This document shows, piece after piece, positions 23,630 to 45,681 of a stretch of DNA of 64,000 nucleotides (position 1 is its first letter; each line of letters starts with the position of its first letter). The stretch spans positions 1 to 64,000 of the forward strand of contig CABJAV010000003.1 of NCBI GenBank assembly GCA_902363675.1, given 5' to 3'. This DNA comes from Lachnospiraceae bacterium (GTDB taxonomy: Bacteria > Bacillota > Clostridia > Lachnospirales > Lachnospiraceae). The notes below the pieces were generated by a model. It made no database searches. It saw only the letters and a list, made by a program, of their open reading frames with translations, and was not told where the DNA came from. The translations under genes and the position numbers were made by a program.

Positions 23630-24829
23630 TTACTGCATCTTTTGTAAAATTTCACTGACAATTGCTGCTGCAACATCCGCCTTGCTCATAATTTCAAGCT
23701 GTCTGCAATCATCCTTTGTAATCAAAGTCACAACATTTGTATCTGTTCCAAATCCGGCACCGGCTACTTTCAAATTGTTGGCAACAATCATGTCCACATT
23801 TTTCTTTGCCAGTTTTGCTCTGGAATTTTCAAGCATATTCTCGGTTTCCATGGAGAATCCACAGATAAACTGTCCCTCTCTGCGGTGTGCGCCAAGAAAA
23901 GCCAAAATATCTTCGGTACGTTCTAATTGCAGCGTTGTATCTGCATCTTTTTTCTTCACCTTTTCGTCTGCCGGATCCGACGGTCTGTAATCCGCTACCG
24001 CAGCAGTCTTAATAATAATATCCTGCTGATCCGCAGTCTCCTTTACAGCTGCCGCCATATCTGCTGCCGAAACAACCGGAACAACCTTTACAAACGGCGG
24101 CGGAGTGATTGCCACCGGTCCCGTAATCAGTGTCACTTCCGCACCACGGCGCATACAGTTTTCTGCGATTGCATAGCCCATCTTTCCGGTGGAGTGATTC
24201 GTAATAAAACGCACCGGATCAATTTTCTCCTGTGTCGGTCCCGCTGTGACCATCACTTTTTTTCTAACCATGTCCTTTTCACAGGCAAGTTCTTTCATAA
24301 TATAAGAAAACAGTACTTCCGGCTCCGGCATCTTTCCGGCCCCGGTATCCCCACATGCAAGATATCCACTTGCCGGATCAATAATATGAAAACCATAACC
24401 CTCAAGCTTTTTGATGTTATCCTGTACGATTGGATTTTCAAACATATTTGTATTCATGGCAGGGGAGACATACTTCGGGCATTTTGCCGCCAGAATCGTT
24501 GTCGTCAGCATATCATCTGCAATCCCGTTTGCCATCTTGCCGATCACATTGGCAGAAGCCGGTGCCACCATAAAAATATCCGCACGCTTTGCCAGCGCCA
24601 CATGCTCGACATTGAACTGGAAATTCCGGTCAAATGTATCCACAAGGCATTTGTTGCCTGTCAGCGTTTCAAACGTGATTGGATTAATAAAATTAGTTGC
24701 GTTTTTTGTCATAATAACATTGACGTCCGCATGCCGCTTCACTAACGCACTTGCAAGATTTGCAATCTTATACGCCGCAATGCTGCCCGTTACGCCAAGA
24801 ACAACGCATTTTCCCCTCAGCATGTCCAT
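23630..24829 (-). CDS. coaBC: Bifunctional phosphopantothenoylcysteine synthetase/decarboxylase, copy 1
   Basis: CoaBC makes 4'-phosphopantetheine precursor for coenzyme A: the N-terminal flavoprotein half (CoaC, residues 1-about 180) decarboxylates and the C-terminal half (CoaB) joins cysteine to phosphopantothenate. Seen are LGVTGSIAAYK, the KLVPASANV-like VAPASANVIGKMANG, the PAMNTNMFENP motif and CoaB's VTAGPTQEKIDPVRFITN. It is 399 residues and looks intact. A second coaBC with the same length lies at 42957; from 23967 upward the two are nearly identical, below that they differ strongly. It follows a broken panT. Confidence 0.95.
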   Translation of the reverse strand: MDMLRGKCVVLGVTGSIAAYKIANLASALVKRHADVNVIMTKNATNFINPITFETLTGNKCLVDTFDRNFQFNVEHVALAKRADIFMVAPASANVIGKMANGIADDMLTTTILAAKCPKYVSPAMNTNMFENPIVQDNIKKLEGYGFHIIDPASGYLACGDTGAGKMPEPEVLFSYIMKELACEKDMVRKKVMVTAGPTQEKIDPVRFITNHSTGKMGYAIAENCMRRGAEVTLITGPVAITPPPFVKVVPVVSAADMAAAVKETADQQDIIIKTAAVADYRPSDPADEKVKKKDADTTLQLERTEDILAFLGAHRREGQFICGFSMETENMLENSRAKLAKKNVDMIVANNLKVAGAGFGTDTNVVTLITKDDCRQLEIMSKADVAAAIVSEILQKMQ

Positions 24830-25698
24830 TCCTCCTATGAATTTCTATCAAAAACAGATGATAAATTACTTCTGAATCGGCTTGATCTTGTTTAATGCAA
24901 CGCCGAGTGCCGCAACGATTGCCTCGATCACGCCGTTAAAGCTGATGACTCCGCCGATGAATCCGAGTACGGCACCCGACCAGAAGGAACACTCCGATCA
25001 GTACGTTGAGTACCGTTGACCAGATCTTCTTGTTCTCTGATGTCACAGCTTTCCTTACTCCAAGGTAAACATAATATGGCAGGATTCCCACAAGAATTCT
25101 CGGTACAAAACAGATGAATGCACTCTAAAAAATTCCGCTTGTTCCAACCATGCTTGCTGCAAGTACCGGTGAAAATACGAATGCTGACAAAGATGACGGC
25201 ATTACGGTGTTCTTGATAAAACTGGTGAGTCCAAAGACGAATCCAAAGAACCCGCCCTTCTTCGGTCCACAGAACAGTGCTCCCAGAATAACCGGGATAT
25301 GAATGATTGTTGCATTAATGATGACCAACGGTATGTACCCAAGCGGGGTAAAAGCCATAATAATGATGATTGCTGCAAATAGAGCTGTCAGAACCAGCTC
25401 CGTTGTCTTAGTGTTACGCATCTTTCCTCCTATTCCAGGTGACGGCTTCTCTTCAAGTCCGTCCCTCTTTTACATGCGAACATTTGTCCATGCAAAATGT
25501 AATTGTATTTGCTGATTGATTCCTTACGGTAACCATCAACCTTCATAGGTTACACCCTTAATCGTAAACGGTCAAGTCACATCATGCCATCGGTTTTTCC
25601 AAAATCTGAATCACCGTATTTCCTTTCATTTTCAGGAAAAACGGCATTCCCGGTTTTGCATCCGTATAAGTTTCCATATATTTTTCAAAAATCATTTT
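23967..25698. repeat. Recent duplicate tract, copy 1 (coaBC 5' part, panT relic, lipoprotein 3' end)
   Basis: 1732 bp nearly identical to 43294-45291 (1998 bp), in direct orientation. The length difference of 266 bp is fully explained by one 15-bp and one 251-bp deletion in panT. Identity stops sharply at both ends: inside coaBC (23967) and in the chemoreceptor gene (25698). Confidence 0.9.
24866..25421 (-). pseudogene. panT relic (ECF transporter S component)
   Basis: Aligned with the intact gene at 44193-45014, this copy has three lesions. A TAG codon at about 25124-25127 replaces a lysine codon after GTSGIF. A 251-bp deletion (joint at about 24976-24981, matching 44321-44571 of the intact copy) lies between imperfect 10-bp repeats ACGGCACCCG / ACGGCATCCG. 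One of two tandem 15-bp units has also been lost. The 251-bp loss shifts the frame. The first about 98 codons remain open from ATG 25421. The gene is very probably non-functional. Confidence 0.93.
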
Positions 25699-26900
25699 CT
25701 GGATTTCCTTCGATGTCGCATCGATTCTCTGCATCGCCTCTGTCAGTCTTTCCAGATCCTCGCGGCTTTGTCCTGCATGTTCTGCGGCTTCCCTTACCGT
25801 TTCATAAGATTTCTCTGCGGCTGTCGCATTATTATTCGCAACCTCTGTAATATTCTCAACCGTAGCTGTCAGTTCTTCCACCGTACCGGCCTGATCCGTT
25901 GCCCCCCCCCTCCGCAAGTGCCTGTGCACCGCAGGATAACTGTCCGGAACCCTGTGCGACCTGTTCGGAAGCAACATTGATCTGCTCTAACGTGTCGCTC
26001 ATCTGACTTCCGAGCTGATGCATCGATTCAAACTGCTCCACAAAAGAGCCGACATATTTACTCTTGTTATCTTCCGATATCGTAAAATCTCCATTCGCCA
26101 TCTGGTCCAGCAGCACTCCCGTATCCTCTACCATCGCATGAAGTGTCGCACACGCATCCTTGAAATCATTGGCCAGCTGACCAAGTTCATCCGGCGATTC
26201 ATACGTGATATCCACATCCAGATTGCCGGCTTTCAGATCCGCAGATGCCTTCTGGATCTGTTTGATCGGACGGAGCATATTTTTCGTGATTGTCTTTCTG
26301 ATTACGATTGAGAAATTCAGGCTCACCACACCAAGAACCACCATCAGAATGATCGATCCGATTCCGGTAGTGCGTGCCGCACGATACTGAGTCGTTGCCT
26401 CTTGTGTCGCATTATCTCCGATGATTACCAGCTTATTCTGAACCGAAACCAATGCATTATTATAATCACCGTTAAAAATTACAAGTGCCTTTGCTTTTTT
26501 CCCTCTGCCTTTCCACTTTCTGTGCCGCCTGGTCCGCGGCACTCAGATAGGATTGTGCCGCACCTGTATTATCCACCGTCAGAGCCCACAGAATATTCTT
26601 GCTCATCAGCTGTACATCCTTGCGGATCTCCATTTGTGTCACGCTACTCATATAGGCCTCTTCATAGAATTTCTTCGTATCAGCATTCATTAGAATGATT
26701 GCAATAAAGGCCATCAGCATCGCAAACATAAAGGTTACGATTACCGTTCCGAACGCATACTTTAACTTGTCTCCAACTTTCTTCTTTCGATAGAATTCCT
26801 CCATTCCACTCTTTGCTTTTGTGACTTTTTTCTTTCTTGCAGTCTTAGCCATCTTATCAGGCTTAATCCGCTTGCTTTTGTTCGCATCTGTACCCTTCAT
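25582..26900 (-). pseudogene. Truncated and frameshifted methyl-accepting chemotaxis protein fused to a lipoprotein 3' end
   Basis: Reading down the minus strand from 26900: a basic N-terminus, a membrane helix and a four-helix sensor segment; a frameshift near 26500-26515 (run of T in GCTTTTTTCCC); a second membrane helix, HAMP (RPIKQIQKASADLKAGNLDV) and the start of the signalling domain; a second frameshift at a G9 run (25902-25910) within ALAEG-ATDQA; then adaptation helices to IQKMI. There the receptor breaks off at 25698, just before the conserved hairpin tip that binds CheA/CheW, and continues as the last 35 residues of the lipoprotein encoded at 45175. A second shortfall is that no tip or return helix is present. 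Non-functional as a receptor unless the frameshifts are sequencing errors, and truncated even then. Confidence 0.9.
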
Positions 26901-26993
26901 ATGACCACTTCTTCTCCCTTTTAAAATGATACTTTTATTATACGTTCATAACCCCAAATTAGCAATGATATAACTTTATATTTCGACATAAAA

Positions 26994-27033
26994 AATGTCT
27001 GCTTTTGTACTTGTTTCGGCAAAAGCAGACATT
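26994..27033 (-). terminator. Terminator of the sugar ABC transporter operon
   Basis: Perfect 14-bp arms AATGTCTGCTTTTG / CAAAAGCAGACATT with a 12-nt loop; the minus strand continues TTTTTTATG. It lies 18 nt past the stop codon of the last permease gene. Confidence 0.9.
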
Positions 27034-27051
27034 CTTTAAATATGAGTACTA

Positions 27052-28074
27052 CTAACCTCTTTTTTTACGTGCGAGGACAACACTTTGAATTACGAGGAAC
27101 AGGCAAAGCATTGCTGCAATGGTAATTCCTGTCCACCAGGCCTGATCAAGGCCTGCAGATGAAACGATATTCTGAATAGTACTAAGTGAAAGTACTCCGA
27201 AAAATGTTCCGATAATATTGCCGACACCACCTGTCAATAGAGTTCCTCCGATAATGGAAGAAGCAATTGCATTCATTTCCATACCACTTGCATGTGTTGC
27301 CGCTCCGGAACCAACATGCAGGAAATATACATAACCTGCGATGCCAGCCAGAAGTCCGCTCAAAAGATGCGCCAGGAATCTTGTCTTCTTGACATTGATA
27401 CCAAGCATCAATGCACTCTGACGATTGCCGCCGACCGCGTAAAATGAACGGCCAAGCTTTGTCCAGCGAAGTAACACAAACATGATAATTACAATCAGGA
27501 TTGCAACAATCACACCAATCTCAACGTATGCATTGACATATTTTCCGATGCGGTTTACCGATCCCATTCCCGGTACAATTACACGTGTATCTTTCAGTTT
27601 TACAAAAGCCTCATTCTGCACGTTGAACGGATCTGTATGCACGATCGATGTCATGCCTCGTGCAAAGAACATTCCAGCAAGTGTTACGATAAACGGCTGG
27701 ATATCCAGATATGCTACCAGAAATCCCTGTACCAGTCCGAATGCGAGTCCGATTCCCAGAGCGATTAAAAGCGAAACAAATACGTTTCCACCCATAAAAT
27801 CCAGGTATACTGCGCAGCACATGCTGACTAATGCAACCACACCACCAACAGAAATATCAATGCTTCCTGTGATCATGACAAGACTGAGTCCGCACGCTGT
27901 AATGATCAATGCGCCATTTGCATTTAAAATGTTAAAGAATGTCTGCGGCTTTAAGAATCCGCCGCCCTCGAAAATCATTGCTCCAATATACATTAAGAAG
28001 AATACTACGATCGTGATGGTCAAAAGCAGGTTGGCATCCGAAAGTGATAATTTTTTTAAAGATTTTGATTTCAT
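27052..28074 (-). CDS. Sugar ABC transporter permease, YjfF type
   Basis: A 340-residue RbsC/AraH-like permease (BPD_transp_2) with eight to ten helices. ITACGLSLVMITGSIDISVGG and the later GGTLLTGGVGNIIGTFFGVL motif (EAA-like loop) are typical. It is the last gene of the operon SBP-ATPase-permease-permease. Two different permeases per operon is the hallmark of the YtfQRT-YjfF galactofuranose/arabinose-type group. The start ATG is 2 nt beyond the stop of the preceding permease. Substrate inferred from the flanking ara genes: L-arabinose or an arabinofuranoside. Confidence 0.88.
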   Translation of the reverse strand: MKSKSLKKLSLSDANLLLTITIVVFFLMYIGAMIFEGGGFLKPQTFFNILNANGALIITACGLSLVMITGSIDISVGGVVALVSMCCAVYLDFMGGNVFVSLLIALGIGLAFGLVQGFLVAYLDIQPFIVTLAGMFFARGMTSIVHTDPFNVQNEAFVKLKDTRVIVPGMGSVNRIGKYVNAYVEIGVIVAILIVIIMFVLLRWTKLGRSFYAVGGNRQSALMLGINVKKTRFLAHLLSGLLAGIAGYVYFLHVGSGAATHASGMEMNAIASSIIGGTLLTGGVGNIIGTFFGVLSLSTIQNIVSSAGLDQAWWTGITIAAMLCLFLVIQSVVLARKKRG

Positions 28075-28075
28075 A

Positions 28076-29170
28076 TTAGCCTACCTCCTTTGCATTTTTA
28101 ACCTTCATCTTTTGTGAGAAGGCTGCAAATTTTTCTCTCACCACCGGAGCACTGATTACAACCAGAATGATGACAACGATTGCCTTGTAAGCTGAGATTG
28201 CTTCTGATTTAACATTGAGCTTGTACAGTGTAGTGGTCAAAAACTGAATAACATATGCGCCTAAAATAGATGCCGCAAGATTAAATTTTCCGCCGCTTAA
28301 AGAGTTTCCGCCAAGCGCTACGGCAAGGATTGCATCCATCTCGATGTCTTTTGCAATAACAGAATAGTTAATGGTCGAAATACGGCTTACTTTAATGAGC
28401 GCTGCTACCGCTACACAAAGACCAAGGATTACAAAGCTTATAAATTTGATGAATGCAGGGTTCAATCCGTTTAAGCGGGATGAACTTTCATTGATGCCGA
28501 CTGCCTGTGTATACAACCCAAGGTTCGTAAACTTCATAACCAGTGCAACCACAATGACACACGCCAATGCAATAAAGAATGGAGTCGGGATTGGGATACC
28601 CGGAATAAATCCACCGAAGTATCCGAAAGAAGGATCACTGATAACCGGGAGTTCATTATTGTTGATCCATGCCGCGATCGAACGGCCTGCTGTATACAGG
28701 ATTAATGTTGCGACCATCGGCTGTATTTTAAATCCCGCCACCAATATTCCGTTGAATGCTCCAAAAAGCATTGCAACGACACAACTTACCAGAAATGCCA
28801 CGATAATCGGTGCCTGTAACTGATCCGGACGTGAATTGCTTCCGCACAGCACGCGTAAGATAACGGAACCGGCGATTGCAATGCCTGCTCCAACGGAGAT
28901 ATCCTGTCCACCGGAAGCCGCTGTAACAAGTGTCATTCCGATTGCGAGGATGGCAAGTTCCGAGCCATAATCCAGGATTGTAATCAGATATCCGGATAAT
29001 ACATGATTTCCGGAACTATTTACATCGAGTGTAATTTTGTAAAATGACGGATCTGCAATCAGATTAAATACCGCCAGCAGCAACAATGCTGCAATTGGAA
29101 TCAGGATTTGCTTTCCGCTCAGCATATCCATGATACTTTTCTTCTTTGTTAATGATTGTGTTTTAGGCAT
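28076..29170 (-). CDS. Sugar ABC transporter permease, YtfT type
   Basis: A 364-residue permease of the same family, with the motifs GMTLVTAASGGQDISVGAG and ALGGNSLSGGKFNLAASILG. An extended N-terminal cytosolic part (about 25 residues) precedes the first helix. The start at 29170 was chosen because GGAGGTGA lies 7 nt before it; it overlaps the end of the ATPase gene by 8 nt. Pairs with the downstream permease to form the heterodimeric channel. Confidence 0.88.
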   Translation of the reverse strand: MPKTQSLTKKKSIMDMLSGKQILIPIAALLLLAVFNLIADPSFYKITLDVNSSGNHVLSGYLITILDYGSELAILAIGMTLVTAASGGQDISVGAGIAIAGSVILRVLCGSNSRPDQLQAPIIVAFLVSCVVAMLFGAFNGILVAGFKIQPMVATLILYTAGRSIAAWINNNELPVISDPSFGYFGGFIPGIPIPTPFFIALACVIVVALVMKFTNLGLYTQAVGINESSSRLNGLNPAFIKFISFVILGLCVAVAALIKVSRISTINYSVIAKDIEMDAILAVALGGNSLSGGKFNLAASILGAYVIQFLTTTLYKLNVKSEAISAYKAIVVIILVVISAPVVREKFAAFSQKMKVKNAKEVG

Positions 29171-30686
29171 TCTTCTCGTCACCTCCGGCAATCGTATCCA
29201 TAATCTTGCTCTGTGTCAAATCTTCTCCGGTAATCTCGCCAACCTTCTTTCGGTCACGCATAACGATCAAACGGGAGCAGGTACGAAGCATCTCATCCGT
29301 CTCGGACGAAATAAAGGTGACACTCATACCTTCAGAAGCAAGTTTTAGTACAAGTTTCTGAATTTCAATCTTTGTTCCGATATCAATGCCTCGTGTCGGC
29401 TCATCCAGAATCAGATACTCCGGATGGGTCAAAAGCCAGCGGGCAAGGATAACTTTCTGCTGATTTCCACCTGACAGCGACTTGATCGGCGTATCTGCCG
29501 ATGCCGTCTTGATTTCCAGCAGCTTAATATATTCGTCTGCAAATTTATTTGCCTGTGCCTTAGAGAACGGGCGGAAGAATCCCCGCAATACCTGCGCTGC
29601 AAGAATAATATTATCTCTTACAGAGAGATCTCCGACAATACCGTCCACTTTACGATCTTCCGGAAGGTAAGCAATTCCGTTCTTCATAGCATCAATAGGC
29701 TTTGAAATCTTGATTTCTTTTCCATTTTTCTTGATCTTGCCACCGATCACGCGATCCGCACCAAATATGGCACGTACACATTCGCTTCGGCCGGATCCGA
29801 GCAATCCGGTAAATCCGTTGACTTCGCCTTTTCTGATATAGAAATCAAATGGTTTGATTCCTGCATTACTCTGCAACTGTTCTACTTCAAATACCGGCGG
29901 AACGGATTCATCTGCGTGGTAGATCTGTGTCTCATCCTTAATCTGAGCCTCATCGTCAAGTTCCTTGCCAAGCATCTTAGCTACCAGTTGTACTCTCGGA
30001 AGCTTCTCAATCTCATATTCTCCGACCAGTTTACCATCCCGAAGAACCGTAATCCGGTCACATACTTCATATACCTGATCCAAAAAGTGCGTAACGAAGA
30101 TGATTCCTACGCCTCTGGCTTTCAGATCCTTCATAAGCCCGAAGAGTTTCTGTACCTCTTTGTCATCCAGAGAGGAGGTCGGCTCATCGAGGATCAGTAC
30201 TTTACAATCCATATCTACGGCTCTGGCGATGGCAACCATCTGCTGGATTGCGATCGAACAGCTGGAAAGCTGCTGCGTTGCCTTTGCCGGAATATCGAGA
30301 GACTTCAGAATCTTATCTGCGTCCTCGTTCATTTTCTTCCAATTCTGTCCCACGCCCTTCGTTCGTCCGATAAACATGTTCTCTGCAACGGACAGGTTCG
30401 GGCAGAGTGTAATTTCCTGATACACAGTACTGATTCCCAGATTCTGCGCATCCTGCGGCGAATGGATTTCTACCGCCTTGTCACTTCCTGCAAGGAAAAT
30501 TTCTCCCTCATCTTTTTCATACACACCGGTCAGAACCTTGATCAGTGTCGATTTTCCGGCTCCGTTCTCACCCATAAGTGCGTGGATTTCGCCTTCACGC
30601 AGGGAGAAATCAACCGCCTGCAATGCCTTTACTCCTGTAAAGTTTTTATGGATATTTTTCATCTGTAATACTACATTTTCTTTCAC
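29163..30686 (-). CDS. Sugar ABC transporter ATP-binding protein, YtfR type
   Basis: A double ATPase of about 507 residues (RbsA/MglA type). The first domain has GENGAGKSTLIK (Walker A), LSSCSIAIQQMVAIARA (signature) and VLILDEPTSSLD (Walker B). The second has a degenerate Walker A (GLLGSGRSE), SLSGGNQQKVILARWL and YLILDEPTRGIDIG. The start is uncertain: the frame opens with TTG at 30716, and the GTG at 30686 behind AAGGGG is preferred. A terminator-like hairpin between the binding-protein gene and this gene probably lowers its expression relative to the binding protein. Confidence 0.92.
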   Translation of the reverse strand: MKENVVLQMKNIHKNFTGVKALQAVDFSLREGEIHALMGENGAGKSTLIKVLTGVYEKDEGEIFLAGSDKAVEIHSPQDAQNLGISTVYQEITLCPNLSVAENMFIGRTKGVGQNWKKMNEDADKILKSLDIPAKATQQLSSCSIAIQQMVAIARAVDMDCKVLILDEPTSSLDDKEVQKLFGLMKDLKARGVGIIFVTHFLDQVYEVCDRITVLRDGKLVGEYEIEKLPRVQLVAKMLGKELDDEAQIKDETQIYHADESVPPVFEVEQLQSNAGIKPFDFYIRKGEVNGFTGLLGSGRSECVRAIFGADRVIGGKIKKNGKEIKISKPIDAMKNGIAYLPEDRKVDGIVGDLSVRDNIILAAQVLRGFFRPFSKAQANKFADEYIKLLEIKTASADTPIKSLSGGNQQKVILARWLLTHPEYLILDEPTRGIDIGTKIEIQKLVLKLASEGMSVTFISSETDEMLRTCSRLIVMRDRKKVGEITGEDLTQSKIMDTIAGGDEKNA

Positions 30687-30720
30687 CAGCTCATTCACCC
30701 CTTGCTCATTCGTCAAAAAA

Positions 30721-30754
30721 CGCGACGCTGCGTTTTCCTCATACGCTGCGCCGC
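30721..30754 (-). terminator. Leaky terminator between binding-protein and ATPase genes
   Basis: Minus strand CGCGGCGCAGCGT, loop ATGAGGAA, ACGCAGCGTCGCG then TTTTTT: 11 of 13 positions pair by Watson-Crick, one is G-U and one is mismatched. It is GC-rich and T-tailed. Such partial terminators let the binding protein be made in excess. Confidence 0.75.
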
Positions 30755-30824
30755 GCTTCTTTTACCTGCTTATTTTGTCATTCCTGCATGCAGAATATCA
30801 TTTTGTGCTAATGCCTGTGCGTGT

Positions 30825-31832
30825 TTAGATTCCGTAAGTGCTCACATCATCTGCAGTAATGGTTGTTGCATCAAAGCCCTTCTCATCCATGATGATGGTC
30901 TTCTCTGTGATCTCTTCACCATTCTGAAGCTTCTGGATTACATCAGCGATATAAGAGGCCTGGAATGGATTACACTGTCCATCGTAGTTCCAGTTCTGAT
31001 CTAACAGTTCCTGAAGTGCCCACTGGTTGCAGTCGAATCCCATAACGATGACATCTTTGCCAACACCGTGTGAGATGTTTGCTTTATCAAGAGCTGCTAC
31101 AGCACCCTTTGCCATATCGTCGTTCTCAGCATAGATAACGTTGAACTTCTCGCCACTGTCGATAACAGACTGTACAATCTGCTGTGCTTTCTCTGCATTC
31201 CACTCTGCGGTCTGCTCATTTACAATGTTCCATCCTTCTGATGCAGCCATATCTGTGAGAGCTCCGGAACGTCCCTTCTGTGCTGCGGATCCCATAACAC
31301 CCTGAATATGAATGATATTGTACTCATCAAGATTCTGTGCTTTTAACCAATCACAGGCTGTCTGTCCTTCTTTATCCATGTCGGATACGATAGATGCTGC
31401 ATAAAGGCTCTCATCCGCATCGATAACACGGTCAAACAGGATAACCTGTGTTCCTGCATCCTGTGCATCCTTTAATACAGAATCCCATCCTGATGTATCA
31501 GCTGCTGAAAGAAGCAGATAATCAACGCCATCCTGAATGAACTTCTGTGCAGCTGTAATCTGCTCATCATTCTTAAGACTGTATGCAAATGAAGCATCAT
31601 ATCCGTTCTCTTTTGTGAACATTGCCTTCATATCCTTGTCATTTGCTGTACGATATCCGGACTCATTTGGATCATTGTTAATAATTCCGACCTTGATAAG
31701 ATCTCCGCTTGAGCTGCTGCTCGGCGCCGATGTATCACCTGCTCCGTCTGTTTTTGCTGTATTGCCGCCACAGGCAACCAGTCCGAATACCATCATTGAT
31801 GCCATTAAGATTGATAAGATTTTTTTCTTCAT
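30825..31832 (-). CDS. Sugar ABC transporter substrate-binding lipoprotein, YtfQ type
   Basis: A 335-residue LacI-fold periplasmic-type binding protein. MKKKILSILMASMMVFGLVACGG is a signal peptide with lipobox LVAC (Cys21), given here in outline. The body has VGIINNDPNESGYRTANDKDMKAMF and DGVDYLLLSAADTSGWDSVLKDA, matching the YtfQ branch that binds furanose sugars. The start at 31832 is set by GGGAGGAAAA; the frame is open to 31925. First gene of the transporter operon. Confidence 0.92.
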   Translation of the reverse strand: MKKKILSILMASMMVFGLVACGGNTAKTDGAGDTSAPSSSSSGDLIKVGIINNDPNESGYRTANDKDMKAMFTKENGYDASFAYSLKNDEQITAAQKFIQDGVDYLLLSAADTSGWDSVLKDAQDAGTQVILFDRVIDADESLYAASIVSDMDKEGQTACDWLKAQNLDEYNIIHIQGVMGSAAQKGRSGALTDMAASEGWNIVNEQTAEWNAEKAQQIVQSVIDSGEKFNVIYAENDDMAKGAVAALDKANISHGVGKDVIVMGFDCNQWALQELLDQNWNYDGQCNPFQASYIADVIQKLQNGEEITEKTIIMDEKGFDATTITADDVSTYGI

Positions 31833-32229
31833 AAATTTTTCCTCCCATGTTACATTGTTTTGAATTGTTTTGTTTGTTTCGTTTGGGCCCTTCTCTTTTG
31901 TAAGTTCACTATACCATCCGTTCATTTTATGGGCAATCTCATTTTTTCTTATTTCTTCGTATTTGGAAGTTATTTACAATACAAATTTACTGTGATATTA
32001 TTAAAACAAATACAAATTGTGACATGATGTATTTTTTTACTTCAGAGCGTATGCTTTTCTATGATTTTGCAAGATAAATCCGCTTTCTGCGACAGATTCA
32101 ACACCATAATCCATTGTGAAAACTGAAAAAGCATTTGCCTCAAAAGCATTTTTTTGTAAAAAAGTTTGTTTTTTTACGATTCTGTATCTAAATGTACAAA
32201 TTCTAATTTCCAAAAAAGGGGAAAATTTT

Positions 32230-33288
32230 ATGGCGATCAAATATAAATGGCTCGCAGCAAAGCTGCGCGAACAATTACCGGACTACGCTGCACGTGGACA
32301 GCATCAACTGCCAACCGAGGTGGAACTTGCATCACGTTACAAAGTCAGCCGGCAGACTGTCCGCCAGGCACTTGCGCAGCTGACGCAGGAAGGCTTGATT
32401 GAGAAAAGACAAGGGAGCGGCAGCTTTCTTACCGGTCGGCTGCGTTCATTTGATCAGAATATTGTGTCGATTCTGATCTCCAGTGATTCGGATTATACCT
32501 ATCCAACGTTTCTGTATCATCTTCGTCATGAACTTCAACGCAAAAATTTTATGTTACGCGTTCACATAACCGGCAATGATATTGCAAAGGAACGTTCCAT
32601 CCTTTCGGAACTTCTTTCTGACCCGCCACGAGTACTCATTGTCGAACCGGTCAAAAGTACACTTCCCAATCCCAATCTGGATCTGTACCGCACATTGCTC
32701 CGGAATCAATGTCATATTGTTTTTCTCCGCCACAGCTACCCTCAGCTAAACAAAATTGTCTGTGTCGGGGAAGATAATCTTTCCGGGAGTCGCATGCTTA
32801 CAGAACATTTGCTTGCTCAGGGGCATACCTCTCTCGGAGCCCTCTTTTACGCAGACGATCTCTCCGGAAGTGAACGGTATCAGGGAATGATCGAATCCTT
32901 ACGTGACAACGGACTTCCGCTTCCGGATGCATCCGTGCGCTGGTTCCACACTTTCGAATTGCAGCAATTAATACAAAAACGCGATACAGACTTCATAAAA
33001 AAAGCGATACAGGAATCCTTTTCATCCTGTACCGCTATACTGTGCCACAACGACCTGATTGCCTATGAACTTATCCGTGCTCTACATATGTCCTCTGATC
33101 CGCGTCTATCGGAAATTACCGTTGTCTCGTTCGACCACAGTTATCTTTGCAGAACAAGTCAGCCTTCATTTCTCTCACTTTCCCACCGGGAGCATGAATT
33201 GGAGCAAAAACTTACGGAAACAGCATTAGCCCCGCTTAAAGGATTGCCTGCAAATTCATCAAACCTGGATTGGATTTTTCAACCGTAG
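32230..33288 (+). CDS. GntR/LacI-type (AraR-like) regulator, third copy
   Basis: A 352-residue protein with an N-terminal GntR winged helix (LPTEVELASRYKVSRQTVRQ, residues about 23-42) and a LacI-type sensor domain, the AraR design but clearly diverged from araR1 and araR2 (for example FLRHSYPQLNKIVCVGEDN). It is transcribed divergently from the ABC transporter operon and is probably its regulator. The start at 32230 follows AAAAGGGGAAAATTTT; the frame is open to 32116 but without support. The 397-nt space 31833-32229 holds the divergent promoters and several ACAAAT repeats (about 31975-32025) that may be operators. Confidence 0.87.
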   Translation: MAIKYKWLAAKLREQLPDYAARGQHQLPTEVELASRYKVSRQTVRQALAQLTQEGLIEKRQGSGSFLTGRLRSFDQNIVSILISSDSDYTYPTFLYHLRHELQRKNFMLRVHITGNDIAKERSILSELLSDPPRVLIVEPVKSTLPNPNLDLYRTLLRNQCHIVFLRHSYPQLNKIVCVGEDNLSGSRMLTEHLLAQGHTSLGALFYADDLSGSERYQGMIESLRDNGLPLPDASVRWFHTFELQQLIQKRDTDFIKKAIQESFSSCTAILCHNDLIAYELIRALHMSSDPRLSEITVVSFDHSYLCRTSQPSFLSLSHREHELEQKLTETALAPLKGLPANSSNLDWIFQP

Positions 33289-33304
33289 CGGGCAAAGATT
33301 GATA

Positions 33305-34921: not shown

Positions 34922-34943
34922 TTTCTATCCCCTATTAGTCTTA

Positions 34944-35945: not shown

Positions 35946-35946
35946 T

Positions 35947-37464: not shown

Positions 37465-37543
37465 CGAAAATATCTCCACATCATTATATGTCTATTATAT
37501 AAGATCTCTCCTCCATCGTCAAAAAGAAATGCTTATGTTTAAA

Positions 37544-37626: not shown

Positions 37627-38322
37627 CTAATTCTGTCCGTAATAAGCGTTTGCTCCATGCTTACGGAAGAAATGCTTATCGCGGATGCAATCCGGTGCCG
37701 GCTGCACCTTCGGATTGATCAGTTCCGTACGGGTTGCCATCTTGGCAACTTCTTCCAGCACAACCGCATTGTGTACTGCCTCTGCCGCATCCTTGCCCCA
37801 TGTAAACGGTCCATGATTTGTACAGAGCACGCCAGGTGTATAAATTGGATTGATGCCACGAGTCTCAAATGTCTCGATAATGACTTTACCGGTATTCGTC
37901 TCATAAGCCTCATCAATCTCTTCCGGTGTCAGACTTCTTGCACACGGAATCGGTCCAAAGAAATAATCCGCATGTGTAGTTCCGTAAAGAGGAATATCTC
38001 TTCCGGCCTGTGCCCACGAAGTTGCCTCCGGCGAATGTGTATGTACCACACCTCCAATGTCAGGATACTTCTTGTACAGTTCCAGATGGGTCGGTGTATC
38101 GGAAGATGGTTTATAGTCACCCTCGATCTTGTTTCCCTCAAGGTCCATAACAACCATATCTTCCGGCTTCAACTTATCGTAATCCACGCCGCTTGGCTTA
38201 ATAACGAAATAACCGCTCTCACGGTCAATCCCGCTGACATTGCCCCATGTATAGGTGATCAGGCCTCTGCGCGGAAGTTCCATATTTGCTTCATATACCT
38301 GTTTCTTTAATTCTTCAAGCAT
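37627..38322 (-). CDS. araD: L-ribulose-5-phosphate 4-epimerase, copy 2
   Basis: Same 231-residue length as copy 1 and nearly the same protein, with [10 protein letters not shown] and YGTTHADYF motifs kept, so it should be active. DNA differs mostly at synonymous sites. It starts 18 nt after the araB2 stop codon; no upstream in-frame extension is present, which helps fix the start of copy 1. Last gene of araA2-araB2-araD2. Confidence 0.95.
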
Positions 38323-38339
38323 GATGATCCTCTTTTCTT

Positions 38340-39941
38340 CTATAAGTTCAGTTTCATTGTCTCAACTGCTGCACGTTCGATCGGAAGTCCCGCATTGTAG
38401 AGCTTTAAGAATTCATCGAATCCCGCAACATCAGAAGCGATCGGTTCCTCTGTTACACCTTCCTGACCCGCGAATACTTCATCATTTAAGTAATCAGCAA
38501 GTGACTGACCATCTTTCTTGTTCTTCATATAGGAAGCGAGTACCGCAATACCCCATGCACCGCCTTCGCCGGCCGTCTTCATAACGGATACCGGTGTGTC
38601 CATGGCAGCTGCCATAATACGCTGTCCGACAACCGGAGTCTTAAACAGACCGCCATGTCCATAGATCTTGTCAATCTGTACATGTTCTTCCTTAAGAAGG
38701 ATATCAAGTCCATTCTTGAGCGCACCGAGCGCAGTAAACAAATGCACGCGCATGAAATTGGCAAGCGTAAACTTGCTGTCCGGTGTTCTTGCAAAAAGAG
38801 GACGTCCTTCTTCGAATCCGGTAATGCTCTCACCCGAGAAATAGTTATAAGCTAACAGGCCGCCACAATCAGCATCGCCTTCGAGTGCCTTATTATAAAG
38901 TACGGAGAACAGCTTATTCATGTCAACTTCAATGCCAAAGTTCTCTGCGAATTCCTTAAATAAGTTAACCCATGCATTCAAGTCAGATGTGCAGTTGTTG
39001 CAGTGTACCATTGCAACTGCCTCACCTGTAGGGGTTGTAACCAGATCGATCTCTGTGTGAACTTTCTCTAACGCTTTTTCCAGTACGATCATTGCAAAAA
39101 CAGAAGTTCCTGCAGATACGTTTCCGGTTCTGACTGCAACACTGTTTGTCGCAACCATTCCGGTACCGGCATCGCCTTCCGGCGGACATACCGGAATTCC
39201 ACCCTTTAGGTTTCCGCTTGGATCAAGAAGCTTTGCTCCCTCTTCGGTAAGTACACCTGCCTGCTCGCCTGCAGATAATACCTTTGGAAGGATTTCTGTA
39301 ATCTTCCACGAATATCCCAATGGTGCAATCATCTCATCAAATGTTGCCAGCATCCCGGCATCATAATCACCGGTTGTACTATCGATTGGGAACATTCCGG
39401 ATGCGTCACCGACACCAAGAACTTTCTCGCCGGTCAGTTTCCAATGAATAAAACCTGCCAGCGTTGTAAAAAATGCGATATTGGCAACATGTTCTTCCTT
39501 GTTTAAGATTGCCTGATATAAATGAGCAATGCTCCATCTCTGCGGAATATTATAAGAAAATGCCTCGGTCAGCTTTGCAGCTGCTTCCTCGGTAATTGTA
39601 TTTCTCCATGTACGGAAAGGAACCAAGAGTTCTCCATCCTTGTCAAACGCCATATAACCATGCATCATTGCACTGAATCCAATGGAACCGATTGTTGTCA
39701 GTGTCTCGCCATACTGTGTCTTGACATCCTCCGCAAGATTTTTGTAACAATCCTGCAGTCCGTTCCAGATATCATCAAGTGAATATGTCCAGATTCCGTT
39801 TTCCAGACGATTCTCCCACTCATGACTTCCGATTGCAAGGACACCATTATCCGGTCCGACAAGTACTGCTTTAATTCGTGTGGAACCAAATTCAATTCCA
39901 AGTGATGTATTTCCGGCTGTAATTGCCTCTTTGTTTGTCAT
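38340..39941 (-). CDS. araB: FGGY-family ribulokinase, copy 2
   Basis: A 533-residue FGGY kinase, parallel to copy 1, with [27 protein letters not shown] and [19 protein letters not shown]. Start at 39941 behind GGAGGG; the frame runs open to 40040 but that stretch overlaps the araA2 end and has no support. Copies 1 and 2 differ in scattered residues, more than araA, so this pair has drifted further. Confidence 0.9.
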
Positions 39942-40017
39942 TGTTTTCCCTCCAAAATATGAGTGCTTAACTTTTCCGCCCACTCCACTGTGTGAGTGAG
40001 CGGAATGTTGCTTTATC

Positions 40018-41511
40018 TTATCTGTAGAAGACCTCTCCAAGCATTAAGTCTCTCTTGAAGTCACGAATCTTTGTATCCTTATCAATGTATACAGCCTCGA
40101 TACCCATTGCTGCTGCCCAGTCGCCCATCTGCTCTGCAGTAAGGTCATATGTAAATGCAGTATGATGTGCACCACCTGCAAGGATCCATGCTTCTGCTCC
40201 TGTGTAGATATCCGGTTCCGGGGTCCAGAAGTTGGTGGCTGTAGGAAGCTTCGGCATAGGCTTCTCTGTCTTCTTGCACTCTACATCATTAATGATAAGA
40301 CGGAATCTGTTTCCAAGATCGATCAGGGATGTTGCAATACCATGTCCTTCCTTTGATGTAAATACAAGTCTTGCAGGATCTTCTCTGTCACCCATAGAAA
40401 GAGGCTGGCATTTGATGCTGATCGGGCCATCTGCGATAGACGGACAAATCTCAAGCATATGAGCCTCAAGAATTCCTTCTTTACCCTTAACAAGGTTGTA
40501 TGTGTAATCTTCCAGCATGGAAGTTCCCTTTGCATCTTTCATTCCGGCTGTCATAACCTTCATGAGACGTACCATAGCGGCTACCTTCCAGTCTCCCTCT
40601 GCACCGAATCCATAGCCTTTTTCCATAAGTCTCTGGATTGCAAGTCCCGGAAGCTGCTTTAATGCGCCGAGATCTCCGAAGTGTGTTACAATTGCCTGAT
40701 AATTCTTCTCTTTTAAGAAACGCTCAAATCCGAGTTCAATCTGTGCCTGTACGGCTACATGCTTCTTGAACTCTTCCGGATCTCTGCCCTCAAGTAAGAT
40801 GTCGTACTTGTCATAATACTCATCAACCAAAGCGTTTGTATCAGACTGCGATACCGCTGCAACAGACTCTGCAATCTCGTTTACCGGGTAAGCATCAACT
40901 TCCCATCCGAACTTAATCTGTGCTTCTACCTTGTCGCCCTCTGTTACGGCTACGTTTCTCATGTTGTCAGCGACACGCATAACACGGATATGGCTGCTCT
41001 CCATGATTCCGACTGCGGTACGCATCCAGCTTGCGATCTTACCGACAACAACCGGATCACTCCAGTGTCCGACAACAACCTTACGCTCAATTCTCATACG
41101 GCTTACAATGTGGCCGTACTCTCTGTCACCATGTGCAGACTGGTTCTCATTCATGAAATCCATATCGATGCTGTCATATGGAAGTTCTTCATTGAACTGT
41201 GTATGTAAATGCATTAATGGCTTGCGGTATTCCTGAAGACCTAAGATCCAGGACTTTGCAGGTGAGAATGTATGCATCCATGTGATCACACCGGCACAAT
41301 TCTCATCAGCGTTTGCCTCGTTAAAAGTCTTACGGATCAGCTCGTTTGTGATGAGTGTCGGTTTCCATACGACCTCATATGGAAGCATTCCTGACTTGTT
41401 TAACTTATCCACGATCTGCTTTGAGTGCTGTGCTACCTTTGCAAGGCACTCATCTCCGTACAAATCCTGTGAACCTGTACAAAACCAAAACTGATATTTC
41501 TTTAATTCCAT
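40018..41511 (-). CDS. araA: L-arabinose isomerase, copy 2
   Basis: A 497-residue isomerase with the same motifs as copy 1 ([36 protein letters not shown]). The proteins differ mainly in the first 40 residues. Behind a perfect AraR-type operator (41570-41599) and a minus-strand promoter-like pair TTGTAA / TATTCT whose spacer is covered by the operator, which fits repression by AraR in the absence of arabinose. Confidence 0.97.
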
Positions 41512-41716: not shown

Positions 41717-42808
41717 CTACCTCCTCTTACACGAAGTCCCTTCCACCAATTCTGGTTCGATCATAATCTTTTGTTTTTCACTATTCTCCCCGTTTACCAC
41801 AAGATCCAGCAGTAATTCTGCCGCCATCTCACCTAATTTTTCCTGCGGATGCGCGATTGATGTCAAACGAAAGTCCGACTGATTCGCCATATAAAAATTG
41901 TCGTATCCCGTAACCGATACATCATCCGGGATCTTCAAGTCAAGTGCCTCAAGCGCCCGGATCACTCCCATCGCATTCTGATCATTGTAGCAGACAACCG
42001 CGTCCAATTCTTTGTTTTTCGCGATATTCTGAATGCCCTCATACGGATGGATCTTGCGGTCCTCCGTGTAGAACCATACAACCATATCCGGATCATACGG
42101 CATACCCGCTTCCTGCAATGCACGCACATATCCCTTGTGCCGGTTCTGTCCCTGCGTATCATCCGCCTTAAAAACGCCTGCGATATGCTTATGTCCCAGT
42201 TCGATCAGATATTTCGTGATCATATATCCGCCCTTGCAATCATCAATCAGCACCTGTGGCTTGTCTTTCATCTGTTCAAAACATCCCTGAATAAACACAT
42301 ATGGAATGTTATATTCGTCCAATTTATCATACAAGTTCGTGTGTTTGCAGAAAATCTGGCTCTTACTCGGCTCAATAATGACACCATCAATGTCCTTCTG
42401 CAGCAATTCCTCTAAGCATTTTGCTTCCATTGAACGTGAGTTTCTCGTATTTTTGAGGATAATGCTATATCCCTGGGAGGTCAGCACAGAATCGATTCCC
42501 TCAATGACACGCGGAAAAATGTAATCCGACAGATACGTCGTCACAACCGCAATATTCTTCGAAGTATGTGTATGGCGCGCAAGTTCCGAACAGAACGTAC
42601 CTCTGCCATGTTCCGCATAGATATAACCCATACTCTGCAGCATCTGGAGTGCCTTACGAACCGTCTGCCTGCTGATTCCATACTCGCCGGACAGCTCATT
42701 CTCAGAAGGAAGTTTGTCCCCCGCCTGAATCTCACCGGATAAAATTTTCTCCTTCAGATCCTCCATTAACTGAAAATATTTTAATTGTTTTCCCTCATTT
42801 ACAGCCAT
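41717..42808 (-). CDS. araR: AraR-type arabinose repressor, copy 2 (full length)
   Basis: A 363-residue AraR: winged helix (KLPSENELSGEYGISRQTVR) plus LacI-type sensor with VVCYNDQNAMGVIRALE and DVSVTGYDNFYMAN, and a complete C-terminus through PELVEGTSCKRR. Length matches Bacillus AraR (about 362). Start at 42808 behind GAGGG; a GTG 12 nt upstream is an alternative. With copy 1 truncated, this is probably the working repressor for both ara operons. Confidence 0.92.
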   Translation of the reverse strand: MAVNEGKQLKYFQLMEDLKEKILSGEIQAGDKLPSENELSGEYGISRQTVRKALQMLQSMGYIYAEHGRGTFCSELARHTHTSKNIAVVTTYLSDYIFPRVIEGIDSVLTSQGYSIILKNTRNSRSMEAKCLEELLQKDIDGVIIEPSKSQIFCKHTNLYDKLDEYNIPYVFIQGCFEQMKDKPQVLIDDCKGGYMITKYLIELGHKHIAGVFKADDTQGQNRHKGYVRALQEAGMPYDPDMVVWFYTEDRKIHPYEGIQNIAKNKELDAVVCYNDQNAMGVIRALEALDLKIPDDVSVTGYDNFYMANQSDFRLTSIAHPQEKLGEMAAELLLDLVVNGENSEKQKIMIEPELVEGTSCKRR

Positions 42809-42818
42809 ATATGCCCTC

Positions 42819-42857
42819 ACTTGTACTTATATAAGTTTACTTGTACGCAACTTGTAT
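42819..42857. promoter_or_regulatory. AraR-type half-sites upstream of araR2
   Basis: Three ACTTGTA half-sites in 39 bp (42819-42826, 42839-42846, 42850-42857), the first two followed by C and the third by T. Same motif as the araA operators; suggests autoregulation. Confidence 0.6.
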
Positions 42858-42896
42858 ACTATACTACGCACATTTGCGCTATTTTGCAAGAAAAAA

Positions 42897-42935
42897 GAGA
42901 ACCACCATACATTTAAGATGTATGAATCGGTTCTC
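42897..42935 (-). terminator. Terminator of coaBC copy 2
   Basis: Outer arms GAGAACC / GGTTCTC and inner CATACAT / ATGTATG; on the minus strand followed by TTTTTTCTTG. It lies 22 nt past the coaBC2 stop codon. Confidence 0.85.
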
Positions 42936-42956
42936 ATTTCTCTCAACTTGTCTGTT

Positions 42957-44156
42957 TTATTTCATCTTGTCAAGAATCTCTGTAACGATTGAAGATGCAA
43001 CCTCAGCTTTGCTCATCAGTTCAAGCTGCTTGCAATCATCTTTCGTGATGATCGTAACGACATTCGTATCGGTCCCGAATCCTGCCCCCGCCACCTTCAG
43101 ATTGTTGGCAACGATCATGTCAACCTTCTTCTTGGCAAGCTTTGCCCGGGAGTTCTCCAGCATGTTCTCTGTCTCCATCGAAAAACCGCAGATAAACTGC
43201 CCGTCTCTTCGATGTGCCCCAAGGTACGCTAAAATATCTTCGGTACGCTCAAGTTCCATTACTGATGTATCGTCCTTCTTCTTAACTTTTTCATCTGCCG
43301 GATCCGACGGTCTGTAATCCGCTACCGCAGCGGTCTTAATAATAATATCCTGCTGATCCGCAGTCTCCTTTACAGCTGCCGCCATATCTGCTGCCGAAAC
43401 AACCGGAACAACCTTTACAAACGGCGGCGGAGTGATTGCCACCGGTCCCGTAATCAGTGTCACTTCCGCACCACGGCGCATACAGTTTTCTGCGATTGCA
43501 TAGCCCATCTTTCCGGTGGAGTGATTCGTAATAAAACGCACCGGATCAATTTTCTCCTGTGTCGGTCCCGCTGTGACCATCACTTTTTTTCCAACCATGT
43601 CCTTTTCACAGGCAAGTTCTTTCATAATATAAGAAAACAGCACTTCCGGCTCCGGCATCTTTCCGGCCCCGGTATCCCCACATGCAAGATATCCACTTGC
43701 CGGATCAATAATATAAAAACCATAACCCTCAAGCTTTTTGATGTTATCCTGTACGATTGGATTTTCAAACATATTTGTATTCATGGCAGGGGAGACATAC
43801 TTCGGGCATTTTGCCGCCAGAATCGTTGTTGTCAGCATATCATCTGCAATCCCGTTTGCCATCTTGCCGATCACATTGGCAGAAGCCGGTGCCACCATAA
43901 AAATATCCGCACGCTTTGCCAGCGCCACATGCTCGACATTGAACTGGAAATTCCGGTCAAATGTATCCACAAGGCATTTGTTGCCTGTCAGCGTTTCAAA
44001 CGTGATTGGATTAATAAAATTAGTTGCGTTTTTTGTCATAATAACATTGACGTCTGCATGCAGCTTAACCAGCGCGCTTGCAAGGCTTGCAATCTTATAC
44101 GCCGCAATACTGCCCGTTACGCCAAGAACAACGCATTTTCCCCTCAGCATGTCCAT
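42957..44156 (-). CDS. coaBC: Bifunctional phosphopantothenoylcysteine synthetase/decarboxylase, copy 2
   Basis: 399 residues, same domains as copy 1 (CoaC flavoprotein half, then CoaB synthetase half). It follows an intact panT by 36 nt, so uptake of pantothenate and its conversion to CoA precursors are coded together. The 5' two thirds are nearly identical to copy 1; the 3' third (42957-43293) differs at many sites, mostly silent, with small changes such as TILDKMK against EILQKMQ at the end. Confidence 0.95.
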   Translation of the reverse strand: MDMLRGKCVVLGVTGSIAAYKIASLASALVKLHADVNVIMTKNATNFINPITFETLTGNKCLVDTFDRNFQFNVEHVALAKRADIFMVAPASANVIGKMANGIADDMLTTTILAAKCPKYVSPAMNTNMFENPIVQDNIKKLEGYGFYIIDPASGYLACGDTGAGKMPEPEVLFSYIMKELACEKDMVGKKVMVTAGPTQEKIDPVRFITNHSTGKMGYAIAENCMRRGAEVTLITGPVAITPPPFVKVVPVVSAADMAAAVKETADQQDIIIKTAAVADYRPSDPADEKVKKKDDTSVMELERTEDILAYLGAHRRDGQFICGFSMETENMLENSRAKLAKKKVDMIVANNLKVAGAGFGTDTNVVTIITKDDCKQLELMSKAEVASSIVTEILDKMK

Positions 44157-44192
44157 TCCTCCTATGAATTTCTATCAAAAACAGATGATAAA

Positions 44193-45014
44193 TTACTTCT
44201 GAATCGGCTTGATCTTGTTTAATGCAACGCCGAGTGCCGCAACGATAATTGCCGCAACGATTGCCTCGATCACGCCGTTAAAGCTGATGACTCCGCCGAT
44301 GACTCCGAGTACGGCACCCGGATCGATGCTGAGTGCATCCGCATAAGCGTTCTTGTACAATACAAAGATTCCGCCCATAACTAAAATTGTGTTGGTCATT
44401 GCGCCGACCACACCCGCATAGATGAATGCGGATACGCTGCCGCTTTTCTTAAGTGTGAACACTTCCAAAGCCGCAAATACAACGACACCGACGATCGCAC
44501 TGATCGCCCATACCGCTCCTGTCGAAAGCGGGTTGGCATCGAATACTTTATTGATAAAAGCACGGCATCCGACCAGAAGGAACACTCCGATCAGTACGTT
44601 GAGTACCGTTGACCAGATCTTCTTGTTCTCTGATGTCACAGCTTTCCTTACTCCAAGGTAAACATAATATGGCAGGATTCCCACAAGAATTCTCGGTACA
44701 AAACAGATGAATGCACTCTTAAAAATTCCGCTTGTTCCAACCATGCTTGCTGCAAGTACCGGTGAAAATACGAATGCTGACAAAGATGACGGCATTACGG
44801 TGTTCTTGATAAAACTGGTGAGTCCAAAGACGAATCCAAGGAACCCGCCCTTCTTCGATCCGCAGAACAGTGCTCCCAGGATAACCGGGATATGAATAAT
44901 GGTTGCATTGATCACCACGAGTGGTATGTACCCGAGCGGGGTAAACGCCATAATAATGATGATTGCTGCAAATAGAGCTGTCAGAACCAGCTCCGCTGTC
45001 TTAGTGTTACGCAT
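44193..45014 (-). CDS. ECF transporter S component, probably pantothenate-specific (PanT)
   Basis: A 273-residue membrane protein. The first 130 residues match the ECF S-component pattern (helix 1 with alanine-rich ELVLTALFAAIIIIMAFTPL, then the GALFCGSKKGGFLGFVFG loop). The second half has further helices and is longer than typical S components of about 190 residues. Substrate inferred from the coaBC neighbour: pantothenate. Start supported by AGGAGG 6-7 nt upstream. The C-terminus is KPIQK. Confidence 0.8.
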   Translation of the reverse strand: MRNTKTAELVLTALFAAIIIIMAFTPLGYIPLVVINATIIHIPVILGALFCGSKKGGFLGFVFGLTSFIKNTVMPSSLSAFVFSPVLAASMVGTSGIFKSAFICFVPRILVGILPYYVYLGVRKAVTSENKKIWSTVLNVLIGVFLLVGCRAFINKVFDANPLSTGAVWAISAIVGVVVFAALEVFTLKKSGSVSAFIYAGVVGAMTNTILVMGGIFVLYKNAYADALSIDPGAVLGVIGGVISFNGVIEAIVAAIIVAALGVALNKIKPIQK

Positions 45015-45019
45015 TTTTC

Positions 45020-45170
45020 CTCCTATTCCAGGTGACGGCTTCTCTTTCAGTCCGTCCCTCTTTTACATGCGAACATTTGTCCATGCAAAATGTAATTGTA
45101 TTTGCTGATTGATTCCTTACGGTAACCATCAACCTTCATAGTTTACACCCTTAAGCGTAAACGGTCAAGG
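45020..45170 (-). promoter_or_regulatory. Possible structured leader of panT-coaBC
   Basis: The 160-nt leader is kept in both copies. It can form GACGG / CCGTC near the ribosome binding site (45034-45056) and GTTTAC / GTAAAC further upstream (about 45143-45164). It does not match a riboswitch class that I recognise. The second stem is disturbed in copy 1. Confidence 0.3.
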
Positions 45171-45174
45171 CACA

Positions 45175-45681
45175 TCATGCCATCGGTTTTTCCAAAATCT
45201 GAATCACCGTATTTCCTTTCATTTTCAGGAAAAACGGCATTCCCGGTTTTGCATCCGTATAAGTTTCCATATATTTTTCAAAAATCATTTTATCTTTTGT
45301 TACTACACGAATATCGGCATCTGTTCCCCCAAATTCTCTTGTCCAATCCAAAAAGGAGTACTCCGTCTGATCTGTCAATGTTACATCCTCTGTTTTTTCA
45401 TCCTTATTGTATATATAATATCCGTCAGGCATATCGTCATCCGTGTGTTTGTAACTTGCCAGTCGATCACTGTCCCCGGAACTGATATACTCCACGGGAT
45501 CGATGACCAGTGTATTTCCATTGATTTCCTTTATATAAGCGCAGAGTTCTGTTGTATCCTCCTTCATACTGTCTGCAGTTTCTGTCTCCTCAGCTTTTTC
45601 TGTAACTGTCTGTTTTCCACATCCTCCAAGTCCTGAAATGCACGCACACATCATAAGTAAAATCCATCTCTTTTTCATCAT
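45175..45681 (-). CDS. Lipoprotein of unknown function
   Basis: A 168-residue exported lipoprotein: signal peptide MKKRWILLMMCACISGLGGC with lipobox LGGC. The mature part has a short acidic linker, then a beta-rich domain (ELCAYIKEINGNTLVIDPVEYI and a C-terminal KGNTVIQILEKPMA) of a kind seen in Firmicutes lipoproteins of unknown role. Its last 35 codons are duplicated at 25582-25698, joined to a chemoreceptor gene. It lies 12 nt after the DUF4367-type gene and may belong to the sigma factor operon. Confidence 0.85.
   Translation of the reverse strand: MMKKRWILLMMCACISGLGGCGKQTVTEKAEETETADSMKEDTTELCAYIKEINGNTLVIDPVEYISSGDSDRLASYKHTDDDMPDGYYIYNKDEKTEDVTLTDQTEYSFLDWTREFGGTDADIRVVTKDKMIFEKYMETYTDAKPGMPFFLKMKGNTVIQILEKPMA

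Follow-up and report, generated by a model that had tools for sequence, protein, structure and literature searches.

Two published accounts come close to the locus described here: that of hotspots without mobile elements, in which recombination takes place at the flanking core genes (PMC5635113, 2017), and that of anchored sequential displacement, in which orphan remnants are retained (Kirchberger et al. 2017, PMC5361080). The locus lies in a stretch of 64,000 nucleotides of a Lachnospiraceae bacterium (positions 1 to 64,000 of contig CABJAV010000003.1, assembly GCA_902363675.1; hereafter, the window), where the gene array panT-coaBC-araR-araA-araB-araD is present twice in direct orientation (copy 1 at about 18405-25698, copy 2 at about 37627-45291). 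We propose that a variable spot next to coaBC took up a second island via one homologous and one illegitimate joint, without replacing the resident island, an explanation that we favor tentatively, being not quite half convinced of it. The kind of event is already known and the example is new; it is fairly ordinary bacterial recombination, and none of the titles listed in literature searches deals with this locus.

The locus resembles the hotspots in its variable content beside a conserved gene, in the lack of any mobility gene seen and in the mosaic flanking core gene, and differs in that it holds both of two alternative islands and has part of the core flank in duplicate. The likeness to the displacement described by Kirchberger et al. 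is that the incoming module would be anchored on one side, with the older material displaced but kept; here, however, the cargo is a sugar operon, the remnant is a coenzyme A gene pair, and no anchor was located. In its gene content, with AraR of the GntR/LacI type, AraA and class II aldolase domains, the locus is like the araR-araA-araB-araD operon of Lachnospiraceae, but two copies occupy one locus, each adjoining coaBC, and the kinases match ribulokinase models far below the cut-off, the family models not settling the name araB for either araB1 or araB2.

The repeat was found by self-BLAST, and its identity profile was obtained by global alignment in 100-column bins; both display two direct copies with the same gene order and strand, as stated in an earlier note on this DNA, although copy 1 is not intact, panT1 being a pseudogene and araR1 lacking its C-terminus. 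Between the copies, araD is 86% identical (64% at third codon positions), araB 74% (51%), araA 86% (63%), and araR 70% (45%), and the 3' part of coaBC reaches 72-80% per bin; beyond it, identity climbs to 98-100% and then collapses past 25698/45291, which excludes uniform identity along the whole repeat. The intervening tract differs at 38 of 1731 aligned columns (97.8% identity, against 70-86% for the diverged ara genes), and its only internal length changes, 15 bp (after 24907) and 251 bp (after 24975), make up the 266-bp difference between the copies, so that the edges and length changes given in the earlier note are exact. The mismatches are clustered: among the 37 in 24006-25698, 9 fall within 55 bp (24728-24782) and 15 within 107 bp (25247-25353), the remaining 13 being spread over the other 1530 bp, and none of 2000 random placements yielded a 107-bp window as dense in mismatches. 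Given this clustering, two alleles fit better than one clean copying event.

The tract ends at 25698 inside a hypothetical gene; the bases that follow belong to a chemotaxis receptor gene broken off ahead of the part for the signalling tip, and a single open reading frame (ORF) spans both sides; the homologous receptor of Roseburia faecis (R. faecis) M72 runs on for about 150 residues further. The entire chemotaxis-receptor pseudogene (25582-26900) is truncated, with pieces in different frames. Because the two sides of the joint are not homologous, copy 1 cannot have come from conversion alone, unless the joint pre-existed; such a mid-gene join of the hypothetical gene's tail to the chemotaxis gene is what a new duplication or the stacking of islands leaves. 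Copy 1 lies toward ncs2 and copy 2 toward etfA, and insertions lie in between. The near-identical tract, which consists of coaBC-panT and 117 bp of the gene beside panT2, is better read as a recently duplicated backbone.

The two copies differ in condition. Judged by reading frames, copy 2 is intact; panT1 is dead, carrying a 251-bp deletion plus a stop codon, and the araR1 junction (22428-22446) has 177 bp fewer than M72. A protein of 362 amino acids, P0125, from a cluster of 274 member sequences, is listed as 100% identical over 95% of araR1, with one substitution seen; since it is full-length, an intact form of araR1 exists elsewhere. The 5' part of coaBC1 is nearly identical to coaBC2, the last ~110 codons are diverged, and residue 189 of coaBC1 is an arginine, the other 15 proteins of the alignment having glycine. 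With panT1 dead and araR1 truncated, copy 1 is decaying.

The comparison with locus structure in close relatives, which the earlier note had put forward as a check of its reading, speaks against that reading. In each of three related genomes (G006, G051, and G056), a single contig carries tsaD, rnz, tsaB, tex, two ORFs, ncs2, coaBC, panT, etfA, etfB, bcd, hbd, thl, carB, and carA, with a single coaBC-panT and no ara genes there (the label tex, for which the scan gave only S1 and ComEA-like matches, and the label carA are putative and follow position). The window keeps this gene order plus three additions, namely, 13.2-23.6 kb (ohyA to araR1), 25.7-42.9 kb (the broken chemotaxis gene, a transporter, ara2, and araR2), and 45.2-49.1 kb (the hypothetical gene to the penicillinase-repressor gene), the relatives having other genes or none in the corresponding gaps. 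The panT-etfA gap, in particular, is 148 bp in G006 and 241 bp in G051, with no such hypothetical-to-repressor block inside. We found no ara genes in the stretches fetched from 11 genomes, nor, at the thresholds used, in 99 coaBC loci, of which 19 are about 4 kb or shorter, with others short too and some genomes recurring; when 62 genomes of the group were searched at the DNA level, ara genes adjoining coaBC were likewise not among the matches listed. Within the species, the comparison covers one strain, the window's own.

The two ara sets differ in their relationship to R. faecis. At third positions, tsaD, rnz, tsaB, tex, and ncs2 of the window are 43-53% identical to M72, carAB 60-62%, panT2 45%, and the HD-domain gene 41%; ara2 and 9 of the 14 scored backbone genes all fall at 41-63%. 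Assignment of the window to R. faecis was rejected on the figures for the first five of these genes and carAB, such low backbone identity marking the window as another species. The block from ohyA to araDBA1, in contrast to ara2, is 80-99% identical per gene at third positions (araDBA1, 90-93%), and its M72 counterpart lies on a separate contig, adjoining a full-length araR; the region of ara2, araR2, and the transporter is at 45-66%, and araR1 at 53%. The third-position identity of ara1 to ara2, 50-64%, falls within the range of many other gene comparisons between the window and M72. In a FastTree phylogeny of 27 araA sequences (one frame-disrupted sequence was dropped), araA1 joins M72 with support of 1.000, and this pair has araA2 as its sister (0.999); araA1 thus groups with M72 and araA2 outside, which is not the pattern of descent from one within-lineage duplication. 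Taken together, ara1 and ara2 look like xenologues rather than an old tandem pair, the simplest reading being that ara2 is the species-level counterpart and that araDBA1 came from an R. faecis-like donor. Going by the araA tree alone, ara1 could also have passed from this lineage to R. faecis; the direction we infer from araR, which is cut in the window and complete in M72.

These comparisons bear on tandem duplication with ectopic gene conversion, in the form of an old duplication of panT-coaBC-ara followed by conversion of coaBC-panT from copy 2 onto copy 1. The direct copies, the near-identical tract with a sharp edge where identity steps within homologous sequence, and the like gene order of the copies, araR-coaBC adjacency included, are all as this scheme would have them. 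It is nonetheless quite unlikely, considering that araDBA1 is of the R. faecis type, that the relatives examined have a single coaBC with no ara genes beside it, that the other edge of the tract lies in non-homologous DNA, its last 117 bp coming from a gene whose block is absent between panT and etfA of G006 and G051, and that the mismatches are clustered. From the history drawn in the earlier note, the mosaic locus, the recent tract, and the involvement of an imported, related arabinose locus stand; the old duplicated pair, partly overwritten, is not supported by the araA tree, the R. faecis-type araDBA1 or the mid-gene joint.

Other exchanges with R. faecis are apparent on the right flank. 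The segment 45175-50545, which includes etfA and the block of hypothetical, DUF4367, sigma factor, M56, and repressor genes, is 96-100% identical to R. faecis at third positions, next to panT2 at 45%, and is apparently a recent between-species exchange. The five butyrate genes (49484-54733) are all at 83-96% to M72 (etfB, bcd, hbd, and thl at 83-89%); the latter four are at 62-72% to G006 and G051, below the R. faecis figure, which suggests that the butyrate operon has been exchanged between lineages.

The gene coaBC itself is mosaic. Counted per 25 codons, third-position identity of coaBC1 to coaBC2 is 84-100% as far as codon 275, drops to 65% over codons 275-300, and is 32-52% beyond. Among 5040 pairs from 101 sequences (99 loci and both copies; the pairs are not independent), coaBC1-coaBC2 is the most discordant (99% in the middle, 42% in the 3' part), and the second-largest drop from middle to 3' part is that between copy 2 and M72. 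The window's coaBC is mosaic relative to M72 as well, at 64-84% in codons 50-250 and mostly 21-60% outside, and a step that starts further upstream, before codon 275, is found in one pair of Pseudobutyrivibrio contigs (L014 and L036). Of the 16 pairs whose middle exceeds 70%, 7 fall under 60% at the end, and 3 of the 16 involve the window. Gene content at this conserved spot is variable, as in the hotspots: mechanically called neighbor ORFs of at least 80 amino acids, clustered into families by BLAST across several genera, fall into 35 families in 78 loci for the first ORF downstream of coaBC, compared to 18 families in 79 loci upstream. With coaBC as the one core gene scored for mosaicism, these data are suggestive only of coaBC being a recombination hotspot. 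We consider it doubtful, if worth stating, that the 3' end of coaBC is a Lachnospiraceae-wide, integrase-free docking point, where islands would bring their own last ~100 codons of a presumably essential gene, the core gene serving as the exchange anchor, and where failed replacements would stack islands and leave orphan coaBC-panT pairs.

Both the coaBC mosaic and the joint would also be produced by a recent tandem duplication reaching from mid-chemotaxis to mid-hypothetical gene (transporter, ara2, araR2, coaBC2, and panT2), joined at 25698, after which R. faecis-like and related DNA would have taken the place of the first unit's left part by crossing over within coaBC at about codon 288. 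The fusion of the hypothetical gene into the chemotaxis gene is as expected from such a duplication, and so is a tract of 97.8% identity; however, at least two events are needed, the transporter of the first unit has left no trace in the window, and the mismatch clusters call for extra events, which makes this course unlikely.

No integrase, transposase or relaxase is among the family matches of the genes scanned at 13.2-49.1 kb (araD2, araA2, coaBC2, and one 112-amino-acid ORF at 16152 were not scanned), so that the region is, to this extent, free of mobile-element genes, like the hotspots. For an integrative and conjugative element or integrase island, the scanned genes likewise offer no integrase match, and the repeats on its flanks turn out to be coaBC-panT genes; att sites were not the object of a dedicated search. 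In a Campbell-type scheme, a circular molecule with island 2 would have integrated by a single crossover in coaBC-panT, with the tract left as direct repeats; this would explain why such repeats flank island 2 and is compatible with both ends of the putative circle lying in mid-gene, but it requires a circularized chromosomal fragment, and replication, transfer, and integrase genes are not among the matches for the scanned genes; we hold it improbable. A plasmid origin found no backing: five records have distant coaBC matches, none covering 80% of the query.

The exact runs between the tract copies, up to 259 bp long, are sufficient to confuse short-read assembly, and the window could, in principle, be a chimera of two strains joined through the shared tract. 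Among the 14 best metagenome coaBC proteins, 9 (P0003, P0005, P0007-P0010, P0013, P0014, and P0016) join a body or an end of copy-1 or copy-2 type to stretches of some other type, which is how products of chimeric contigs would look. Such a chimera is improbable, however, with copy 1 having private lesions and a real joint and the window being colinear with the relatives outside the additions. Furthermore, a coaBC that is of copy-1 type at both ends (P0006, 99% identity) is listed on a separate 3505-bp contig, although this contig may itself be unreliable, the one listed for P0014 being of equal length.

The addition of a second island would have proceeded as follows. The slot from ncs2 to coaBC-panT would be a variable spot at which islands for sugar use are gained and lost through recombination within coaBC or close to it, initially occupied by one arabinose island (transporter, ara2, and araR2) beside coaBC2-panT2. 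Incoming DNA from a relative with a different island would have brought ara1 and araR1 with a coaBC 3' end of their own, followed by coaBC-panT and the first part of the adjoining block. Most likely, homology would have joined it at the end toward ncs2, and the opposite end, where the hypothetical gene runs into the chemotaxis gene at 25698, would have been joined illegitimately; with an illegitimate joint on one side, the island would be added beside the resident one rather than swapped in. The tract would be the shared backbone present on both pieces, copy 1 having since been decaying. A single stacking event would, in this manner, yield two islands, a duplicated backbone, cut hypothetical and chemotaxis genes, and clustered mismatches resembling those of alleles. 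The order of events and the one-sided-homology mechanism are, like the direction, what we infer.

Several points weigh against this explanation. The weakest is the araR-coaBC adjacency common to both copies, which implies that the islands or their ancestor were already linked to coaBC; araR beside coaBC was seen in no other locus examined, so that a donor with this arrangement is assumed. The two copies hardly align from the araR leader to coaBC, so that this adjacency may or may not be of common descent. The araR1 junction needs a further event beyond stacking. The homologous left end, placed in or near ncs2, was not located, in contrast to the visible non-homologous joint, and homology-facilitated illegitimate recombination is described as quite rare by Kirchberger et al. 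(PMC5361080). At the 18 differing sites in the panT part of the tract, M72 agrees with copy 2 at 11, with copy 1 at 5, and with neither at 2, so that the mismatch patch does not stem simply from M72-like DNA; the patches look like allelic differences. The M72-like butyrate genes imply that backbone genes are themselves exchanged, and the conversion model would be saved if an old duplicate had already carried the tail of the hypothetical gene.

The remaining features of the window are listed in the table; the name panT for panT2 rests on its neighbor coaBC and is not settled by family models. On either side of the Uma2-family gene (17678-18220) stands a copy of a 67-bp piece of the araD 3' end (17608-17674 and 18400-18466; 89.6% identity), as though the gene had inserted at this end of araD and carried an end of its own in with it; the arrangement is the same in M72, and a second copy beside ara2 was not seen. 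Direct repeats of ~95 bp (81%) at 47131-47220 and 49417-49511 flank the M56-repressor pair, where ~98 bp (46971-47069) and 248 bp (49180-49428) do not align to M72. The M72 locus (L001, 7585-11194) has two extra genes, one with DUF4869 and one unassigned, between panT and coaBC; given these and the ncs2 and tex matches on other contigs, the locus has been rearranged there too.

Table 1 Features of the window, with coordinates, strand, and basis of assignment
Feature	Coordinates	Strand	Basis
Near-identical tract, copy 1 (coaBC 5' part, panT pseudogene, 117 bp of hypothetical gene)	23967..25698	-	alignment
Near-identical tract, copy 2	43294..45291	-	alignment
ncs2 nucleobase permease, left backbone marker of slot	11795..13207	+	NCBIfam TIGR00801 above cut-off; on coaBC side in G006, G051, G056
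R. faecis-like block: ohyA (oleate hydratase), DhaS-like regulator (below cut-off), GH114-like gene, Uma2 gene, araD1, araB1, araA1	13265..22428	-	95% nucleotide identity to M72 C4:6496-15680; third-position identity 80-99% per gene
araR1, C-terminus cut at block junction (22428-22446)	22414..23442	-	342 amino acids vs 367 (araR2), 368 (M72)
coaBC1, open frame, chimeric	23630..24829	-	Pfam DFP + Flavoprotein
panT1 pseudogene (251-bp deletion + premature stop)	24866..25421	-	alignment, frames
Joint ORF: chemotaxis-receptor fragment fused in frame to hypothetical gene tail at 25698	25582..25977	-	
Methyl-accepting chemotaxis protein (MCP) gene, truncated, frame-disrupted	25699..26900	-	HAMP; MCP model far below cut-off; M72 homologue open throughout
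Sugar ABC transporter (two permeases, ATPase, binding protein), response regulator, second binding protein, histidine kinase	27052..37479	-	Pfam; 71-82% nucleotide identity to M72 C4:45549-55774 in pieces
GntR regulator inside transporter region	32116-33288	+	Pfam
araD2, araB2, araA2	37627..41511	-	third-position identity to M72 63, 49, 63%
araR2, full length, GntR/LacI type	41717..42820	-	P0165 at 96% identity
coaBC2, intact	42957..44156	-	
panT2, intact ECF-type substrate component	44193..45014	-	Pfam ECF_trnsprt; best NCBIfam match ThiT, below cut-off
Hypothetical gene, last 117 bp also in copy 1	45175..45681	-	99% amino acid identity to M72; no Pfam match
Hypothetical, DUF4367, sigma factor, M56 peptidase, penicillinase-repressor family gene: block common with R. 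faecis	45175..49054	-	98-100% third-position identity to M72
etfA, etfB, bcd, hbd, thl (butyrate genes), right backbone marker of slot	49484..54733	-	best NCBIfam matches, mostly below equivalog cut-offs; synteny

If the proposed addition is what occurred, classical duplication is not the only way for a gut butyrate producer of the Roseburia/Agathobacter type to acquire a second sugar operon, and direct repeats with an abrupt change of identity are not always the product of gene conversion. The gene coaBC would then be a candidate exchange anchor, which is testable across many genomes.

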